The translations under genes and the position numbers were made by a program. A stretch of 64,000 nt of DNA from contig NC_089429.1 of NCBI RefSeq assembly GCF_026210795.1, positions 1,364,001-1,428,000 of the forward strand. Reading direction: 5' to 3'. This DNA is from Rhizophagus irregularis. Lineage: Eukaryota > Glomeromycota > Glomeromycetes > Glomerales > Glomeraceae. This document shows, piece by piece, positions 16,281 through 43,733 of the stretch. The notes below the pieces were generated by a model. It had not been told where the DNA came from. It did no database searches and saw only the letters and a list, made by a program, of their open reading frames with translations. The stretch's first letter is position 1, and each line of letters opens with the position of its first letter.

Positions 16281-16311
16281 ATGGCTCAAAGTAACGATAA
16301 GGAAGATAAAG
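16281..16311 (+). CDS. putative first exon of the kinase-coiled-coil gene
   Basis: ATGGCTCAAAGTAACGATAA and the following 11 nt encode MAQSNDKEDK plus one base, ending at a donor GTAGGT (16312). A second donor, GTAAAC at 16316, would leave phase 2 instead of phase 1. This is the nearest convincing start-codon exon upstream of the kinase exon at 22227 on the same strand. The link between them across nearly 6 kb is inferred, not shown. With the first donor the phase fits only if extra exon sequence with a remainder of one base is included; with the second donor it fits a direct joining to 22227. Confidence 0.4.
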
Positions 16312-16499
16312 GTAGGTAAACTTATTCGGAAAATCTAATGATAATATTACAGCTTGTAAATCATAAACATATAACTAGAGTAACTTGGTAATTATTAGTG
16401 AGTTATAATCATTATACTGTCAGATTGACTCGAAAATTTTGGGTCGGGTCATCAAACGTTTTTATAATTAAATATAAAAAAAATTGATTTTTTTATTAA

Positions 16500-17910
16500 A
16501 AACGTCAGACTTGACGTTTTTGTAATTAAAAAACAAAAAAATGACTTTTTTAGTTAAAAAACGTCAGGCTTGACGTTTTTGTAATTAAAAAATCAAAAAA
16601 ATGACTTTTTTAGTTAAAAAACGTCAGGCTTGACGTTTTTGTAATTAAAAAATCAAAAAAATGACTTTTTTAGTTAAAAAACGTCAGGCTTGACGTTTTT
16701 GTAATTAAAAAATCAAAAAAATGACTTTTTTAGTTAAAAAACGTCAGGCTTGACGTTTTTGTAATTAAAAAATCAAAAAAATGACTTTTTTAGTTAAAAA
16801 ACGTCAGGCTTGACGTTTTTGTAATTAAAAAATCAAAAAAATGACTTTTTTAGTTAAAAAACGTCAGACTTTACATTTTTGTAATTAAAAAATAAAAAAA
16901 AAATGACTTTTTCAGTTAAAAAACGTCAGACTTGACGTTTTTGTAATTAAAAAATCAAAAAAATGACTTTTTTAGTTAAAAAACGTCAGACTTGACGTTT
17001 TTGTAATTAAAAAATCAAAAAAAATGACTTTTTTAGTTAAAAAACGTCAGACTTGACGTTTTTGTAATTAAAAAATCAAAAAAAATGATTTTTTTAGTTA
17101 AAAACGTCAGACATGGCATTTTTGTGATTAAAAATAAAAAAAAATGATTTTTTAATTAAAAACGTCAGATTTGACATTTTTATGATTCAAAAAATTATTT
17201 TTTATGTTAGATTTGACAATTTTGTAATTAAAAATCAAAAAAATTGATTTTTTTAGTTAAAAACGTCAGACTCGACATTTTTGTAATTAAAAAATCAAAA
17301 AAATGATTTTTTTATTAAAAACGTCAGACTTGACGTTTTTGTGATTAAAAATCAAAAAAAATATTGGTTTTTTTTAATTAAAAATGTCAGACTTGATGTT
17401 TTTGTGATTAAAAATCAAAAAAATATTGATTTTTTAATTAAAAACGTCAGACTTGGCAGTTGGCATTTTGTAATTAAAAATCAAAAAAATATTGTTTTTT
17501 TTAATTAAAAACGTCAGCCTTGACGTTTTTGTAATTAAAAAATCAAAAAAATGATTTTTTTGATTAAAAATGTCAGACTTGATGTTTTTGTAATTAAAAA
17601 ATCAAAAAAAAATGATTTTTTTGATTAAAAACGTTATACTTGACGTTATTGTAATTAAAAAATCAAAAAAAATGATTTTTTTGATTAAAAACATCAGACT
17701 TGACGTTTTTGTTATTAAAAAATCAAAAAAATGATTTTTTTAATTAAAAAACGTCAGACTTGACATTTTTGTGATTAAAAAATAAAAATTAAAAAAATAT
17801 TGGTTTTTGTTTAATTAAAAACGTCAGACTTGACATTTTTGTGATTAGAAATCAAAAAAATATTGGTTTTTTTTAATTAAAAACGTCAGTCTTGACATTT
17901 TTTGTTAAAA
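16500..17910. repeat. tandem ~60-bp satellite with an internal palindrome
   Basis: About 24 units of roughly 60 bp. Each unit holds AAAACGTCA-GRC-TTGACGTTTT, a 9-bp palindrome around a short spacer, then GTAATTAAAAAATC and a T-rich end. Five consecutive units at 16561-16860 are identical to the base, while units to the right are increasingly diverged, as expected for unequal exchange in the middle of an array. The satellite sits inside the large intron-like region of the kinase gene. Confidence 0.9.
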
Positions 17911-18125
17911 AAATAAAAAATGAAGAAAAAATAAAAAATGAAGAAAAAACGTTTTTGCGTTATTTTATTTATAATTTTATATGGAAAAATGCCAAAACGT
18001 TTTTTTCTTAATAGTAATGCAAAAAAAAAAGTTTTTGGCATTTTTTTTAATAATATTATATGAAAAAACGCTGAAACATTTTTTTTACAATTTTTTTATT
18101 TTTTTGCAATATTTTATGAAATTTT

Positions 18126-18556
18126 AATGATCAACAAAAAAATGAAATTATGCAAATATTGAATGATGCAACAATTTAACAGGGACTTTTAGTGGCACAG
18201 GAAGAGTTTTTGCGAAAAGTTGGCATTAGAAGTTTTTTTCATTGACATTGACATTGACATTGACATTGACATTGTCACTGACATTGACATTGTCATTGAC
18301 ATTTTTTTAAAGTTATATAAGATTAATCTGAGAGTTTTTTACCAAAAAGGAAATTTTTTTATAAAAAGGGAAATGATTTTCAATTTCGAGGCAATTCAGC
18401 AGGTGTTTTAATAACAAATTGAGAAATGATTTCCATAGAAAATCTCGTGACAAAATTTATAATAAATTTAAAATAAATGATCAACAAATGATCAACAAAA
18501 TCGTTACTAGTTTTATAAAAAACGCCCAATAATATCTTTTTATTGTTTTAAATTTT
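18126..18556. mobile_element. dispersed repeat, second copy at 42530-43733
   Basis: About 430 bp (for example TGCAAATATTGAATGATG, AGTTTTTGCGAAAAGTTGGC, GGCAATTCAGCAGGTGTTTT) recur almost unchanged and in the same orientation at 42530-43733. The microsatellite inside it (CATTGA/CATTGT units, 18239-18302) differs in length between copies, and the second copy is split there by a 758-bp insertion. No protein is encoded. Probably a non-autonomous transposon; the ends are not clear. The 63-codon frame over the microsatellite is an artefact. Confidence 0.7.
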
Positions 18557-18602
18557 AGAATTTTAAATAACTGTATTTATAAAAATTATTTAACTATTTT
18601 AG

Positions 18603-21600
18603 CTCGTAAGTTATAGGTTATTTGTAGTTTGAATAATAGTTGAATACTTAATCCTATTATATTTTATGTAACCAAATAATTTATTTTATTATTAATGATA
18701 TTATAGTTGGTAAGATAGTTATTTATTTCTATTATATTTTATAAATAACTAATTTTTTTCATTAATATAATTGTTTAATAATTATTGATGTTATAGAAGG
18801 CAAGTATTAATTTTATTTTAATTTAAAATATTTACATATAATTTAAATTAATAATTTTATTTAAATAATTAGATTGTAAGTTACTGCATACATTTAATTT
18901 TCATATACAATTATAGTATTTTATCTAATTAATCAATTTATTATAATTACTTTACTTAAAAATTATTAATGCTACAGGGTGTAAGTTATATGTTATTTAT
19001 TAATTCTGTTATATTTATAATATTTACACAATTTAAACTAACTAAATTATTTATTTAAAAATTACCCAAATATTTTTTTAGTTGGTAAGTTATACATTAT
19101 TTATTAATTTTATTATATTTGTATAATATTTATATAAACTAACTAAATTCTTTATTTAAAAATTTATTCAAATATTTTTTTTTTTAGTTGGTAAGTTATA
19201 CATTATTTATTTAATTCTATTATATTATATAATATTTATTTGAACTACTAACTAAATTCTTTATTTAAAAAATTAATTATTTAATAATATAGAGAGTAAG
19301 TTTTTATTATATTTATATAATATTTACATATGATTTAAACTAATTAAATTCTTTATTTTCAAATATTTTATTTTAGTTGGTAAGTTATACATTATTTATT
19401 TAAATCTATCATATTATATAATATTTACATGCAATTTGAACTAAATTTTTTATTTACAAAATTAATTATTTAATAATACAGAGAGTAAGTTATTTATTTA
19501 ATTCTATTATATTTATATAATATTTACATATAATTTATACTAACTAAATTCTTTATTTAAAAATTATTAGATTGTAAGTAATTTATTATGTTTATATAAT
19601 ATTTACATATAATTTAAACTAATTAAATTTATTTTAAAAAATTATTCAAATATTTTAGATCGTAAGTAGTAATTTATTATATTTATGTAATATTTACATA
19701 TAATTTAAACTGATTAAATTCTTTATTTAAAAAATTATTCAAATATTTTAGATCGTAAGTATTTTATTATATTTATATAATATTTACATATAATTTAAAC
19801 TAACTAAATTCTTTATTTAAAAAATTATTTATTTAATAATATAGGGAGTAAGTTATTTATTTAATTCTATTATATTTATATAGTAATATTTACAAATAAT
19901 TTAAACTAAATAAATTTTTATTTAAAAAATTATTAAAATATTTTAGATTGTAAGTAATATTATATTTATGTAATACTTATATATAATTTAAACTAATTAT
20001 ATTCTTTATTTAAAAAATTATATAGGGAGTAAGTTATTTATTTAATTCTATTATATTTATGTAATATTTACATATAATTTAAACTAACTAAATACTTTAT
20101 TTAAAAATATTTAGATCGTAAGTAATTTATTATATTTGTATAATATTTACATATAATTTAAACTAACTAAATTCTTTATTTAAAAAATTATTCAAATATA
20201 TTAGATCGTAAGTAATTTATTATATTTTGTAATATTTACATATACTAATTTAAACTAACTAAATTCTTTATTTAAAAAATTATTCAAATATATTAGATCG
20301 TAAGTAATTTATCATATTTATATAATATTTACATACAATTTGAACTAACTAAATTCTTTATTTAAAAAAATTATTCAATTTTAGTTTGTAAGTTATACAT
20401 TATTTATTATATTTATATAATATTTACATATAATTTAAACTGATTAAATTCTTTATTTCAAATATTTTAGATCGTAAGTAGTTTACTATATTTATATAAT
20501 ATTTACATATAATATATAATTTAAACTAATTAAATTCTTTATTTGAAAAATTATATTTCTTTAGTTGGTAAGTTATACATTATTTATTTAATTCTATTAT
20601 ATTTACATTTAATTTAACTAACTTTTAAAAATCAATCAAATATTCTAGATTGTAAGTAATTTATTATATTTGTTTTAATAATAATATTTACATATAATTT
20701 AAACTAATTTTAAAAAATTATTTATTTAATAATATAGGGAGTAAGTTATTTATTTAATTGTATTATATTTGTATAATATTTACATATAATTTAAACTAAC
20801 TAAATTCTTTATTTAAAAATTATTCAAATATTATAGATTGTAAGTAATTTATCTTATTTATATAATATTTATGTATAATTTAAACTAACTAAATTCTTTG
20901 TTTAAAAAATCTATTCAAATATTTTTTTTAGTTGGTAAGCTATACATTATTTATTTAATTCTATTATATTTATATAATATTTACATATAATTTAAATTAA
21001 CTAAATTCTTTGTTAAAAAAATTATTCAAATTTTTTTTTTAGCTAGTAAGTTATACATTATTTATTTAATTCTATTATATTTGTATAATATTTACATATA
21101 ATTTAAACTAACTTCTTTGTTTAAAAAATTATTTACTTAATAATATAGGGAGTAAGTTATTTATTTAATTCTATTATATTTATATAATAGAATTTTTCTA
21201 ACTATCACTGGGGTGATGATTACCCCAGTGATTTGAAGTAAAAAACTATATAATATTTACATATAATTTAAACTAACTAAATTCTTTATTTAAAAATCAT
21301 TCAAATATTGTAGATTGTAAGTAATTTATTATATTTATATCAATAATAATATTTACATATAATTTAAACTAACTAAATTCTTTATTTAAAAATAATAATA
21401 TAGGGAGTAAGTTATTTATTTAATTCTATTATATTAATTGCAATTAATTTAAACTAAAATAAATTATTTATTTCAAATATTTTTTTTTTAGTTGGTAAGT
21501 TATATATTATTTATTTAATTCTATTATATTAATTGCAATTAATTTAAACTAAAATAAATTATTTATTTCAAATATTTTTTTTTTAGTTGGTAAGTTATAT

Positions 21601-22145
21601 ATTATTTATTTAATTCTATTATATTTATATAATATTTACATATAATTCAAAACTAACTAAATTCTTTATTTAAAAAATTATTCAAATATTTTAGATCGTA
21701 AGTAATTTATTATATTTATATAATATTTACATATAATTTAAACTAATAAATTCTTTATTTAAAAAATTCTTTATTTAATAATATAGGGGGTTAGTAATTC
21801 TATTATATTTATATAATATTTGTATATGATTTAAACTAATTAAATTCTTTATTTCAAATATTTTAGATCGTGAGTAATTTATTACATTTATATAATATTT
21901 ACATAATAATTTAAACTAACTAAATTCTTTATTTACTAAAATATTTTAGCTTGTAAGTATATATTAAATTTTTTAATTGCATTTAATTTATTATAATTAT
22001 ATAATTTTACTTATAATTTAATTAAATCTTCTTAAAAAATTTTGTTAAACTATCTTAGTTGGTAAGTTATCAGTTATTATATGTTATTTATATAAGAATT
22101 AAAATCAATTATTTATTGTATTAAAATTTTATAATTTTATTTAGA
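18603..22145 (+). other. tandem array of 37 AG-NNN-GTAAGT sites (3-nt exon-like cassettes)
   Basis: A roughly 92-bp AT-rich unit repeats across 3.5 kb. At each unit junction a T-rich tract ending in AG is followed by exactly three bases and then a 5' splice consensus. The three bases are TTG (9 times), ATC (8), ATT (6), GGA (5), AGA (2) and CTC, AAG, GGT, TTT, CTA, GGG, CTT (once each). The donor is GTAAGT in 32 of 37; exceptions are GTAAGA, GTAAGC, GTGAGT, GTTAGT and one GCAAGT. First triplet 18603-18605, last 22059-22061. Spacing is 76-111 nt except one of 165 nt that holds an insertion, matching ordinary introns in this window. Most units contain AAACTAACTAAATT about 40 nt before the AG, a good branch-point sequence. 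At 22145 a 38th site has a single A between AG and GTAAGT. Whether any of these triplets is ever an exon is unproven. Confidence 0.85.
21189..21250. mobile_element. ~60-bp hairpin insertion inside the microexon-like array
   Basis: One unit of the array is interrupted by a short sequence with a perfect 11-bp stem, ATCACTGGGGT and ACCCCAGTGAT, separated by 7 nt. The array sequence TATATAAT resumes on the other side. It looks like a miniature inverted-repeat element that inserted after the array formed, lengthening this one interval to 165 nt. Confidence 0.55.
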
Positions 22146-22575
22146 GTAAGTATAATTAATATTATTCAATATTAAATTTTTAATTATTTTAAATTTTAAT
22201 TTAATTTCATTTTTTTGTATTTAAAGATTTGGTACTAGTGGAAGTAAAATTGTGGATCAATTTATTTCTGAAAATAAATTAAAATGGATTCCTTATAATA
22301 AATTTAAAAACATTGAATATCTTAATAAAGGAGGATTTGGTACTATATATAAAGCTATATGTAAGATTGAAGATAAAGATTATGAAGTAATCCTTAAACA
22401 TTTTGACTATCTTAATAATTCAGATGAAAGTTTAAAAGAATTTTTAAATGAAGTATGAATAAATAATATTTTTTTTTAATTTAATTATAATTTATTTATA
22501 CTTATTTGCTAAATATTATTTTTTATAGTGGCAAATAATTGATTCAAATAAAATTATTAAGATTTATGGATTTAC

Positions 22576-22582
22576 AAAAAAC
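22576..22582 (+). other. A AAA AAC heptamer at the kinase frameshift
   Basis: In the kinase frame the codons here are ACA AAA AAC, so the sequence is a canonical -1 slippery heptamer. Zero-frame reading stops at TGA 12 nt later. A -1 slip at AAC continues CCA AAT ACT TTG and enters exactly the frame of the rest of the kinase domain. The second copy of the duplicated segment has AAA AAT CC instead. No stimulatory stem was recognised downstream. It may equally be a 1-nt deletion in a run of A. Confidence 0.45.
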
Positions 22583-24254
22583 CAAATACTTTGAATATAT
22601 ATGGATTTACAAAAAATCCAGATATTTTGAATTATGTATTAATAATGGAATATACAAATAAGGGTAATTTAAGAGGATGCCTAACAGAAATAGCAAATAA
22701 TTGGGAAAAAAAATTATTTTATTTGTATATTATTATTGTTGGTCTCAATGATATTCATGAAAAAGGTCTTATTCATTATAACTTTCATGATGGTAATATT
22801 TTATGTAACAAATATAAAGAAAATATATATGGAATTTATATTAGTGATTATTTAGGATTATATCAACTTGCAAAATTGTTTTTAAAAGAAAATAATATTT
22901 ATTGTATTATACCATTTATGGCACCTGAAATTTTAAGTGGTCAACCTTATACTCAAACAAGTGATATATATAGTTTTTCTATGATTATGTGGGAATTTAC
23001 ATCTGGAATTCCACCATTTAATGATAAAGCACATAATCTTCAACTTGCTTTAAGTATTTGTAAAGGTAAACGTCCTAAAATTATTGAAAATACTCCACAA
23101 TGTTATGTGGATTTGATGAAAAAATGTTGGGATGAAGATCCATTAAAAAGACCATCTACATTACAGGTTTTAAATATTATTAAAAGTTGGATATTCCGTT
23201 CTGGAAATATCAATGAAGAATCAAAAAGCAATATTACGGAATTTATAAATGCACCAATTGAGCATAATAACCATATTGTAGAATCTCATCCACAAGCATG
23301 CTATACAAGTCATTTACTTGATTTTACTAGTAAAGAATTAAATAAAATTCTAGAGGAATTTCAAGAATTGGAATCACTTAAATTGAAACAAAAAGTTGGG
23401 GATGCTGAGCAGAAACTTCTTAAATTAGAAAAAATTGCAGAAACTTATTATCAAAGTTCTCTAAATGAGTTAAAAGAAAATCGATTAGCATATCAGAATA
23501 TGCAAATGGAATTAGCTAATTTCATTACAACAGAGGAATTCAAAATTTGAACAAGATAATCAAAGTTTAAACTATAATTTAACTGTACAAAATAAAGAAT
23601 TTGCAGAAAAAAAAAATACCTTACAAACCCAAATTATTTATTTGCAAAATGAAAAGCAAGCTTTAGCTAACAATTTAACTGAACAGTTAAAACAAATCAG
23701 TCAATTAAATCAAGAAAAAAACAATCTGCAAAATGAGTTAGCTCAATCAAAAGTTAACATTCAAGAATTACAGTCTCAGCAAGATCAATTTAAAAATAAA
23801 TTAATTCAATCTCAAATTGATCATAAACAAATAGAAGAAAAAAATCTTAAGCTAGAAAATGAGTTAGTTAAGTTACAACAAGGAAATTCTCAATTTGAGA
23901 AAGATAACCAAAATTTGAGACTTGACTTGGCTGTACAACTTAAAATATCTGCAGAAAAAGAAAATACTTTACAACCCCAAATTACTTACCTGCAAAATGA
24001 AAGACAAGCTTTGGCTGAGGATTTAACTGAACAATTGGATCAAAATAAACTTGCTAGCCATCAAGTTCAAAATCAAATTGACCAGTTAATGCAAGATAAA
24101 AATTGTTTGGAAGAAAAATTAACTCAAACAGAAGATAATATTCAAAAATTAGAATCTAAACTAAGTCAATCTCAGGCTAATTATGAAAAGTTGTGCAATA
24201 GGTTAGATGGCCTATCACAAGATTACAAGGTTACTATTAAATTGAAAGCCAAGT

Positions 24255-42529: not shown

Positions 42530-43733
42530 AAATTGATCAGCAAACAAATGAAAACATGCAAATATTGAATGATGTCTCAATTTAACAGGTATTTTCAATA
42601 GCACAGGAAGAGTTTTTGCGAAAAGTTGGCATTAGAAGTTTTTTTCATTGTCATTGTCATTGTCATTGACATTATCACAGAATATTTTTTCTTATTTTTA
42701 TTTTTTATTTTTATTGTTTTCATTTTATTTATTTCTATTTTTATCTTTTAATTATTTTTAGTTATTTTTAGATAGATTACTTGTAGTTGATTTTGGTTGT
42801 TTATAGATTAGATAAAAAGCGGAAGCTTAGCGATGTAAAATGGCTGAATATAAGTAGCTGTATAGACAAATGTGCCCAGATCGCCACAATTGGCCGGAAG
42901 GCGATTATGGTAAAATGACAGTTCTGGACGAAAGGACAGAATCGTATTAATATTTTGACGTTATAAAAAGGGTTGGTGTTGGAAGGAATTTTAGTTTAGT
43001 TCAGTTTGATATCATAAAGTTTTATTGTTATAAGATAGATATCAGGATATTACAGAGCGCCAGTTGAGGCAGTAATATCGTATTCTTTTTATTAATGAAT
43101 AAACTTGTCGATTTGCTTCCGAATTATTGATACATATTTTATTACGTTGTTTATTATCATTTTATTATCATTTATTAACAATTATTAATTTTCGCTATAC
43201 ATCGTTGATTTACTATATACACTTATAACTAATTGTTATCATAAACATACTATCCGATTTACTCCTAATCCATTATATCATTTATTATTGCCTATAATCG
43301 TTCATTATCGACTATTCATATATACACATTTACTTTACCGATTGTTATATATCGCCATATTACCTTACCACTCACATACTGATCCTTATTTTTCTTTCTG
43401 TTACTACCTACCAAACGTTATAAATCGGTGGTAACAACATTATCACTGACATTGACATTGTCATTGTCATTTACATAAAGTTATATAAGATTAATTTGAG
43501 AGTTTTTTACCAAAAAGGAAATTTTTTTATAAAAAGAGAAATGATTTTCAATTTCGAGGCAATTCAGCAGGTGTTTTAATAACAAATTGAGAAATGATTT
43601 CCATAGAAAATCTCGTGACAAAATTTATAATATATTTAAAAATAAATGATCAACAAATGATCAACAAAATTGTTACTAGTTTTATAAAAAACGCCTAATA
43701 ATATCTTTTTATTGTTTTAACTTACAAAATTTA
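42530..43733. mobile_element. second copy of the 18126-18556 repeat, split by an LTR-like insertion
   Basis: The two flanks (42555-42678 and 43447-43733) match 18145-18300 and 18300-18556 in order. The interruption falls inside the CATTGA/CATTGT microsatellite. Without the insert the copy is about 450 bp. Confidence 0.75.
42679..43436 (+). mobile_element. 758-bp LTR-like insertion
   Basis: The insert is bracketed by ACATTATCAC at 42669-42678 and 43437-43446; part of that identity may come from the microsatellite target, so the true target duplication could be shorter. It contains TATAAAAAGG (42963) and AATAAA (43098) at an LTR-like spacing and ends GGTGGTAACA. It encodes no protein. The left end does not start with TG, so the exact boundaries, and the call of a solo LTR, are tentative. 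Confidence 0.5.

Follow-up and report, generated by a model that had tools for sequence, protein, structure and literature searches.

A 64,000 nt stretch of the genome of the fungus Rhizophagus irregularis (NCBI RefSeq assembly GCF_026210795.1, contig NC_089429.1, positions 1,364,001 to 1,428,000; hereafter the window) carries, ahead of a protein kinase exon, a long tandem array of base triplets, each set between a splice acceptor and a splice donor. Very probably, this array belongs to a family of kinase genes that spells one stretch of its proteins from dozens of consecutive 3 nt exons. Observed in the sequence itself are the exact length of these exons, a consistent frame, a lack of stop codons that is confined to true neighbours, and a family of loci of the same design.

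The window array (18603-22061) consists of 37 units of the form AG-NNN-GT or AG-NNN-GC. The donor is GTAAGT in 32 of the 37, and GTAAGA, GCAAGT, GTAAGC, GTTAGT or GTGAGT in the others; units are spaced by 76-111 nt with a single exception of 165 nt, and their triplets fall into 12 types (TTG nine times, ATC eight, ATT six, GGA five, AGA two, and seven types once each). A strict pattern caught 36 of these units, while the one with donor GTAAGA at 18710 came from a second, looser list. A first-pass annotation of this DNA had reported just these sites, donors, spacings and twelve triplets, all of which were confirmed at their positions. It had placed the end of the array at 22145; the exon at this site, which that annotation had not described, is one single base (AG-A-GTAAGT), which closes the array and is required for the kinase frame. 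An exact 95 nt tandem repeat doubles one TTG unit. As judged by eye, the 165 nt spacing seems to contain, at 21190-21250, a short inserted piece that carries an inverted repeat (CACTGGGGT...ACCCCAGTG), is bordered by copies of TATATAATA and resembles a small non-autonomous transposon. The predicted parts of the window gene are as follows.

16281-16311, + strand: exon 1, 31 nt from the ATG (MAQSNDKEDK plus 1 nt), donor GTAGGT at 16312; phase matched by 13 paralogs
16312-18602, + strand: intron 1, 2.29 kb, swollen by a 60 nt satellite (16456-17902)
18603-18605, + strand: 3 nt exon 1, CTC
18707-18709, + strand: 3 nt exon 2, TTG, donor GTAAGA
18797-18799, + strand: 3 nt exon 3, AAG, donor GCAAGT
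18873-18875, + strand: 3 nt exon 4, ATT
18978-18980, + strand: 3 nt exon 5, GGT; Trp codon T/GG split across exons 4 and 5
19082-19084, + strand: 3 nt exon 6, TTG
19188-19190, + strand: 3 nt exon 7, TTG
19293-19295, + strand: 3 nt exon 8, AGA
19377-19379, + strand: 3 nt exon 9, TTG
19482-19484, + strand: 3 nt exon 10, AGA
19571-19573, + strand: 3 nt exon 11, ATT
19659-19661, + strand: 3 nt exon 12, ATC
19752-19754, + strand: 3 nt exon 13, ATC
19845-19847, + strand: 3 nt exon 14, GGA
19947-19949, + strand: 3 nt exon 15, ATT
20026-20028, + strand: 3 nt exon 16, GGA
20115-20117, + strand: 3 nt exon 17, ATC
20205-20207, + strand: 3 nt exon 18, ATC
20297-20299, + strand: 3 nt exon 19, ATC
20385-20387, + strand: 3 nt exon 20, TTT
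20471-20473, + strand: 3 nt exon 21, ATC
20565-20567, + strand: 3 nt exon 22, TTG
20649-20651, + strand: 3 nt exon 23, ATT
20738-20740, + strand: 3 nt exon 24, GGA
20837-20839, + strand: 3 nt exon 25, ATT
20932-20934, + strand: 3 nt exon 26, TTG, donor GTAAGC
21043-21045, + strand: 3 nt exon 27, CTA
21149-21151, + strand: 3 nt exon 28, GGA
21314-21316, + strand: 3 nt exon 29, ATT, preceded by the 165 nt spacing
21404-21406, + strand: 3 nt exon 30, GGA
21492-21494, + strand: 3 nt exon 31, TTG, inside the exact 95 nt tandem repeat
21587-21589, + strand: 3 nt exon 32, TTG, copy 2 of the exact 95 nt repeat
21695-21697, + strand: 3 nt exon 33, ATC
21787-21789, + strand: 3 nt exon 34, GGG, donor GTTAGT
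21867-21869, + strand: 3 nt exon 35, ATC, donor GTGAGT
21950-21952, + strand: 3 nt exon 36, CTT
22059-22061, + strand: 3 nt exon 37, TTG
22145-22145, + strand: 1 nt exon, A, donor GTAAGT at 22146; frame adaptor to the kinase exon
22227-22452, + strand: first kinase exon (FGTSGSKIVDQFISENKLKWIPYNKFKNIEYLNKGGFGTIYKAI...), its end predicted from a GTATGA donor

The 3 nt length of the exons is exact. When GTAAGT donors were taken irrespective of the acceptor, in the window array and 15 paralogous loci, [CT]AG lay exactly 3 nt upstream in 465 of 498 cases and 1 nt upstream in 15, and at 0, 2, 4 or 5 nt in none; [CT]AG at 3 nt was found in 1 of 28 cases on the reverse complement and in 0 of 11 in reversed strings. 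With donors picked alone, canonical acceptors and donors thus flank very short exons at 465 of 498 sites, as in spliceosomal micro-exons. The same length prevails throughout the assembly (146,748,485 nt in 32 contigs; counts are given as two figures). Three successive GTAAGT donors with 3 nt exons gave 593 + 609 = 1202 matches against 25 + 0 for a backward-pattern control, whereas the version with 4 nt exons gave 0 + 1 (control 1 + 0) and that with 2 nt exons 0 + 0 (control 0 + 11). The end signature of the array, a TTG unit followed by the 1 nt exon (TTG...AGAGTAAGT), matched 123 times against none in the control. Among the 100 of these 123 TTG-A pairs that were listed, 79 stand just before a kinase-exon match, with 0 for the opposite-side control; the comparison used the 150 kinase-exon matches listed, from a search that scored its best candidates only. 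The remaining 21 pairs are not placed before a kinase match, and some of them resemble AGA units inside arrays. Most kinase-exon matches that extend upstream of query position 47 hold stops, while about a dozen do not; this upstream part is probably translated intron beside the kinase exon.

We assembled chains of units in 34 loci, a non-random sample made up of the window and 33 others, 15 of which came from kinase matches and 18 from TTG-A places. The chains were built by dynamic programming without scoring the letters of the exons; AG and GT or GC were required, donor strength was scored and the 1 nt end was imposed. All 34 loci gave chains, with 1228 3 nt units in total and sizes from 11 (L022) to at least 63 (L018, which reaches the end of its piece), apart from just 4 in L036. 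L036 and L041 are poor chains and the L009 chain ended on a wrong 1 nt site; counts are given with and without L041. ATT GGT occurs among the first units of 28 of the 34 chains, and TTG is the last triplet ahead of the 1 nt exon in 30 of 34 (13 of 16 in loci not selected by TTG). In the 1170 units of the 32 loci other than L036 and L041, position -3 is T or C in 1146 and position +5 is G in 1102, both positions being scored by the chain finder. A branch-like [CT]T[AG]A[CT] or CTAA lies at most 45 nt upstream in 1125 of 1170 units, a loose check in AT-rich DNA that carries no chance control. The introns have a median of 94 nt (5-95% range 77-110; n = 1184, spacing up to 125 nt), and their lengths modulo 3 are split 432/394/358, showing no rule although acceptors sit exactly 3 nt before donors. 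Locus L041 (C21:735900-742150) has several 6 nt exons among its 3 nt ones, perhaps units fused after loss of an intron, and holds the sole junction stop of the data set described below.

If neighbouring units are joined and translated, the codons formed at their junctions must not be stops. In phase 1, the junction codon takes its first base from the end of one unit and its other two from the start of the unit that follows. After junctions with a spacing of < 65 or > 125 nt had been dropped, which kept 1225 of the 1228 triplets in 75 segments, 1 of 1150 junction codons in the 34 loci was a stop, and 0 of 1104 without L041. In contrast, shuffling the order within segments gave a mean of 43.2 stops, or 39.6 without L041 (minimum of 2000 shuffles, 25), and reading the identical pairs in reverse order gave 48, or 44 without L041. 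Pairs that skip one unit contained stops at the random rate (38/1075, or 37/1036 without L041). TAA, TAG and TGA are the three most depleted among the 28 testable codons at the junctions, and the 412 distinct neighbour pairs included 1 stop against ~24 expected. A stricter repeat (spacing 70-120 nt, then GTAAGT donors only) gave the same picture, with 0 stops at 782 junctions in 34 loci compared with 35 in reverse, a shuffled mean of 27.6 of 782, and 16/615 for skip-one pairs, slightly under random. Because the lack of stops is limited to neighbours, to one direction and to one class of codon, tandem duplication alone is no visible source of it. Rather, this evolutionary evidence suggests that neighbouring units are joined and translated, probably mainly all together.

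Likewise, the codons that would arise in phase 1 resemble those of the kinase genes themselves. The codon-usage reference was a set of 3412 codons taken from these genes, using the longest open frames at eight loci. Against it, phase 1 scored -0.087 per codon, compared with -0.47 in phase 0 and -1.33 in phase 2, and the phase 1 score fell to -0.36 (sd 0.03) when the order was shuffled. In phase 1, the middle base of a triplet becomes the third base of a codon; C stands there in just 27 of 1170 units, as seldom as at third positions in the kinase exons (128/3412). G + C amounts to 55% at the last base of the triplet against about 5-6% at positions -4 and +7. The predicted segment is rich in R, D, F, L, W and Y.

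The array also fits the reading frame on either side. In the window, exon 1 (31 nt), the 37 triplets, the 1 nt exon and the kinase exon form one open frame, with the predicted product MAQSNDKEDK-ALEDWFVEIENYHRNWNHHLYLDWNFARNWIVDRDPFE-FGTSGSKIVDQFISENKLKWIPYNKF...; exon 1 ends one base into a codon, and together with the triplets and the single A this makes two bases, as the kinase exon at 22227 requires. The frame closes if the triplets are read without the 1 nt exon, or if a 35 nt form of exon 1 is combined with all triplets. Two triplet-free forms are open as well, namely the 31 nt exon 1 with the 1 nt exon and the kinase exon, and the 35 nt exon 1 joined directly to the kinase exon, so that an isoform of the window copy that skips the whole array is possible in principle. 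In 13 of the 34 loci, a simple pattern found an ATG exon, a second exon and the array as a single open frame, as in L014 (MALSNDKVSDNIELEGSSSSKEFKESGFEGFEKSSTKESK-ALNDWYHHYRRNLVGNLIDLDRNSYHRNNRNYSYHAF); exon 1 of these 13 paralogs is 22 or 31 nt long and, with the second exon, yields the same phase as in the window. The script accepted only open, in-phase combinations; six loci without an early ATT GGT were untried and 15 failed, among them the window because its exon 1 has another form. Downstream, 26 loci have a candidate acceptor of the kinase exon within their piece (the one giving the longest open frame was chosen), and 23 of these read into the kinase exon in the frame that the 1 nt exon predicts; in eight further loci the piece stops short of the acceptor. 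The second kinase exon of paralog L002 matched the Pfam kinase models PF07714/PF00069 with 95.1 bits (cut-off 23.1), while the joined N-terminal part and first kinase exon of the window gene, scanned without the second kinase exon, reached 15.3 bits with PF07714, which is under the cut-off. After the kinase domain, the tail of the window gene appears repetitive and coiled-coil-like by eye. Collectively, junction stops, codon usage and kinase frame place the triplets in a consistent frame with their neighbours, the evidence being evolutionary.

In the proposed mechanism, spliceosomal introns of ~94 nt would be removed between exon 1, the 37 3 nt exons, the 1 nt exon and the kinase exon to give MAQSNDKEDK-ALEDWFVEIENYHRNWNHHLYLDWNFARNWIVDRDPFE-FGTSGSK..., each codon being split 1 + 2 between successive exons. 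Practically every unit would be included, by splicing that works through intron definition on each intron in turn, and the variable segment would come to lie between a short leader and the kinase domain, where it would most likely provide a gene-specific binding or regulatory surface for the kinase. Arrays would lengthen or shorten through tandem duplication of exon-plus-intron units, one residue each. Simultaneous binding of two splice sites that lie three bases apart is hardly feasible, so that the introns are probably defined singly and removed stepwise. The argument against simultaneous binding has been made for a 1 nt exon (PMC4674806).

How far the units may be used in different combinations was a question raised by the first-pass annotation, which had viewed them as 3 nt cassettes that could be included or skipped in any subset, with many isoforms per gene. 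The part of this idea that stands is that the triplets appear to be coding exons ahead of the kinase domain, given acceptors at 3 nt and junctions nearly devoid of stops. All units except the last are 3 nt long, skipping them would keep the frame, the join of the 31 nt exon 1 with the 1 nt exon and the kinase exon is open, and just ~3.5% of skip-one junctions would create a stop. On the other hand, neighbours show complete avoidance of stops, whereas skip-one junctions show no clear avoidance (37/1036, close to the random 40/1104; 16/615 in the strict set), and because codons straddle every junction, skipping would also alter the neighbouring residue. Free skipping of any subset is therefore not supported and a combinatorial use of the cassettes is unlikely, although some skipping may occur. 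Stop-free neighbours together with skip-one pairs at the random rate speak for inclusion of all units, and for diversity between genes over diversity of isoforms.

The opposite possibility, which the first-pass annotation had set out as its counter-view, is that an intron, together with its acceptor, three bases and a donor, was duplicated many times as an inert satellite within one long intron that is removed whole, leaving the triplets meaningless. The units are plainly tandem duplicates, as the exact 95 nt repeat illustrates, similarity of whole units is expected either way, and with no unit at all the 35 nt form of exon 1 is in frame with the kinase exon. A satellite is nevertheless extremely improbable in view of the stops at neighbour junctions (0/1104 against 44 reversed; 0/782 against 35 reversed), the acceptors exactly 3 nt before the donor at 465/498 sites in 16 loci with variable introns, and a frame that passes from the 31 nt exon 1 through the triplets to the kinase exon only if the 1 nt exon is included. 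Nearly as improbable is a recursive-splicing ratchet, in which the AG-NNN-GT sites would serve as stepping stones and the triplets be lost or kept without coding importance. Ratchet points are zero-length exons and carry no codon constraint; here, [CT]AG was found at 3 nt from 465 of 498 GTAAGT donors and at 0 nt from none, the triplets show a codon-like bias and avoidance of junction stops, and omitting the triplets and the 1 nt exon breaks the frame with the 31 nt exon 1. It is true that an AG beside a strong GTAAGT resembles a ratchet site, and recursive models have been proposed for tiny exons (PMC4674806).

Several observations weigh against the reading of the triplets as jointly translated exons, or limit what can be concluded from single tests. 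Phase 0 is nearly stop-free too (5 of 1225 triplets), so openness alone cannot choose phase 1; it is the junction test that does. The rules of the chain finder and the TTG-A-based choice of 18 loci partly build in the conserved donors and the 1 nt end, and the kinase-frame and ATG-to-array checks show that possible readings exist, not that they are forced. Seven chains start with doubtful units, with donors such as GTAAAT, GCGAAT or GTGAAA. No spliced retrocopy with joined triplets was found in the genome, a weak negative given the short query and limited search. Specifically, a peptide query gave no match, likewise a weak result with zero candidates at first look, and a 3' joined-triplet pattern had no match in the genome; the one near match of the 5' pattern lay inside an unrelated long open frame and was rejected.

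A further such point is the state of the window copy itself, which has a 2.29 kb first intron and an interrupted kinase frame: as assembled, the frame changes where a 35 nt stretch is duplicated in tandem (22565-22632), after which it runs into a stop codon at 23548-23550. In the 13 paralogs, the intron ahead of the first 3 nt exon measures 42-133 nt. Because of the long, satellite-filled intron and the broken frame, the window copy may be decaying; we consider the chances even that the design is real in the family while this copy is a pseudogene or a decaying member without a working kinase now. All its 37 units and the 1 nt exon keep their signals and frame, and assembly errors are possible in a long-read genome. 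The evidence from the family is independent of the state of this copy. The 60 nt satellite that fills intron 1 forms two blocks of about 12 and 11 copies. Two places in the window, 18240-18499 and 43437-43668, have in common a CATTGA-like repeat, a 20 nt repeat around ACCAAAAAG and a AAATGATCAAC repeat, which probably represent a dispersed element.

To follow the evolution of the triplets, we compared units with closely similar surroundings, and used held-out 3 nt blocks of the flanks as a control since plain best-match rates could be biased by the choice of the best flank. Among 173 between-locus pairs of units with flanks ≥ 96% identical, the triplet differs in 60%, compared with 6-23% for held-out blocks in the same pairs; for 168 within-locus pairs with the same flank identity, the values are 31% and 3-14% respectively. 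Broken down by base, the excess of exon over flank sites is 7-10 times for A and T and about twofold for C, whereas G changes less in the exon than in the flanks. As for the refuting condition named in the first-pass annotation, equal rates of change at AG/GT and in the rest of the unit, positions -3 and +3 to +6 changed less than the flanks, a difference that is partly built in, as the chains had been found by their splice signals. The triplet thus appears to be the fastest-changing part at most sites (A, T and C, not G), for which biased mutation or homogenisation of introns is a possible cause; a simple claim of positive selection is weakened because intron G and C sites also turn over fast. 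We tentatively consider, at somewhat less than even probability, a joint scenario in which codon cassettes diversify hypervariable kinase segments, which would act as rapidly changing surfaces for recognition or regulation. The kinases of this fungus that carry such a segment of one-codon exons would probably number more than a hundred, tandem exon-intron duplication would add or drop single residues without risk to the frame, selection would alter the codons several times faster than the surrounding introns, and the device would also serve outside the kinases, at least in the unrelated gene of a coiled-coil AIG1-type GTPase that has a proline-rich segment.

This second array, at C1:1723681-1731440 (donor positions; L045, L043 and L046), has 69 3 nt units in its best chain and leads towards a 931-codon open frame whose sequence looks coiled-coil-like and includes a GTPase domain of the AIG1 type (67.3 bits; cut-off 27). 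Of the three phases, only phase 2 keeps the array open: its 67 junctions hold 0 stops, compared with 3 in phase 0 and 5 in phase 1. As shuffling gives a mean of 0.8 stops in phase 2, the test on junctions is of low power in this case. The array reads MDERLWEELEESLKGLLPPTIPPPPPLPGRLPLGTKIPSPPPLPGRLP..., a proline-rich segment without a match in a Pfam scan. Its connection to the 931-codon frame is a candidate one; if it holds, the array lies in an unrelated AIG1-type gene, and kinases are not the only genes to use the device. With GTGAGT donors, the triple-donor pattern (93 + 15 matches, control 72 + 9) was swamped by a GTGA repeat and its count was not used, though the AIG1-gene array was found again. 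The same pattern pointed to a further place, C17:3901655-3901764, which looks like AIG1-gene introns with a 3 nt unit and is perhaps a paralog of that gene.

Among the open-access literature matches listed, a scope outside which preprints and most subscription journals lie, neither arrays of 3 nt exons nor Rhizophagus micro-exons were found. The nearest relatives by design are the micro-exon genes (MEGs) of Schistosoma mansoni, for which one source describes 10-20 very short exons of 6-81 bp (3-81 in its abstract), most of 15 bp, introns of 0.1-5 kb, secreted proteins and alternative splicing in the centre (PMC10526429). Like these, the arrays would give coding regions that consist for the most part of numerous small exons, with lengths mainly divisible by three, and that are hard to annotate and variable between members. 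Unlike MEGs, they would have as many as 63 or more consecutive exons of exactly 3 nt, separated by ~94 nt introns, before a kinase domain, and apparently all included. Exons here are 3 nt long, with one of 1 nt and 6 nt exons only in L041, instead of mostly 15 bp, and the median intron of 94 nt lies below the schistosome range; as to alternative splicing of central exons, skip-one junctions with little or no constraint speak against frequent skipping, as far as genomic sequence can tell. Because the typical exon and intron sizes differ, we regard the array as a new, extreme form of micro-exon gene that lies outside the schistosome family.

Recursive splicing and stwintrons combine an AG near a donor with stepwise removal of the intron, and leave no codon or interrupt splice sites. 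The arrays share the nearby AG, and stepwise removal is a likely route for them too; here, however, coding bases would stay in the mRNA. Isolated exons of such size have precedents. The Drosophila homothorax micro-Ex8 is a single, alternatively spliced 3 nt micro-exon (PMC7392893), and single-nucleotide exons occur in Arabidopsis APC11 (PMC4674806) and Fusarium CYP621A (PMC12940212); 1 nt exons with GTRAGT donors are noted for plant VPS55 (PMC8831610). Micro-Ex8 is likewise a 3 nt exon recognized by the spliceosome, but one exon and no array of dozens, and APC11 and CYP621A have a frame-setting 1 nt exon as isolated cases, whereas here the 1 nt exon closes a 3 nt array in a family. The VPS55 study states that the program STAR, when no annotation was supplied in advance, mis-mapped reads over a 1 nt exon (PMC8831610). 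Both STAR and BRAKER served for the R. irregularis assembly (PMC10234402), so that standard annotation would miss these exons.

Rough scaling from the non-random sample gives about 6,400 3 nt exons, perhaps thousands in this fungal genome. If transcripts confirm them, these would be the densest known intron arrays in coding sequence, with dozens of one-codon exons in a row; we know of no denser ones. They would test how the spliceosome handles exons too short for both splice factors simultaneously, and would provide a natural assay of splicing fidelity across some 40 successive introns. For the kinases of R. irregularis, such arrays would open a route by which a protein segment gains, loses and changes single residues through intron-borne duplication.

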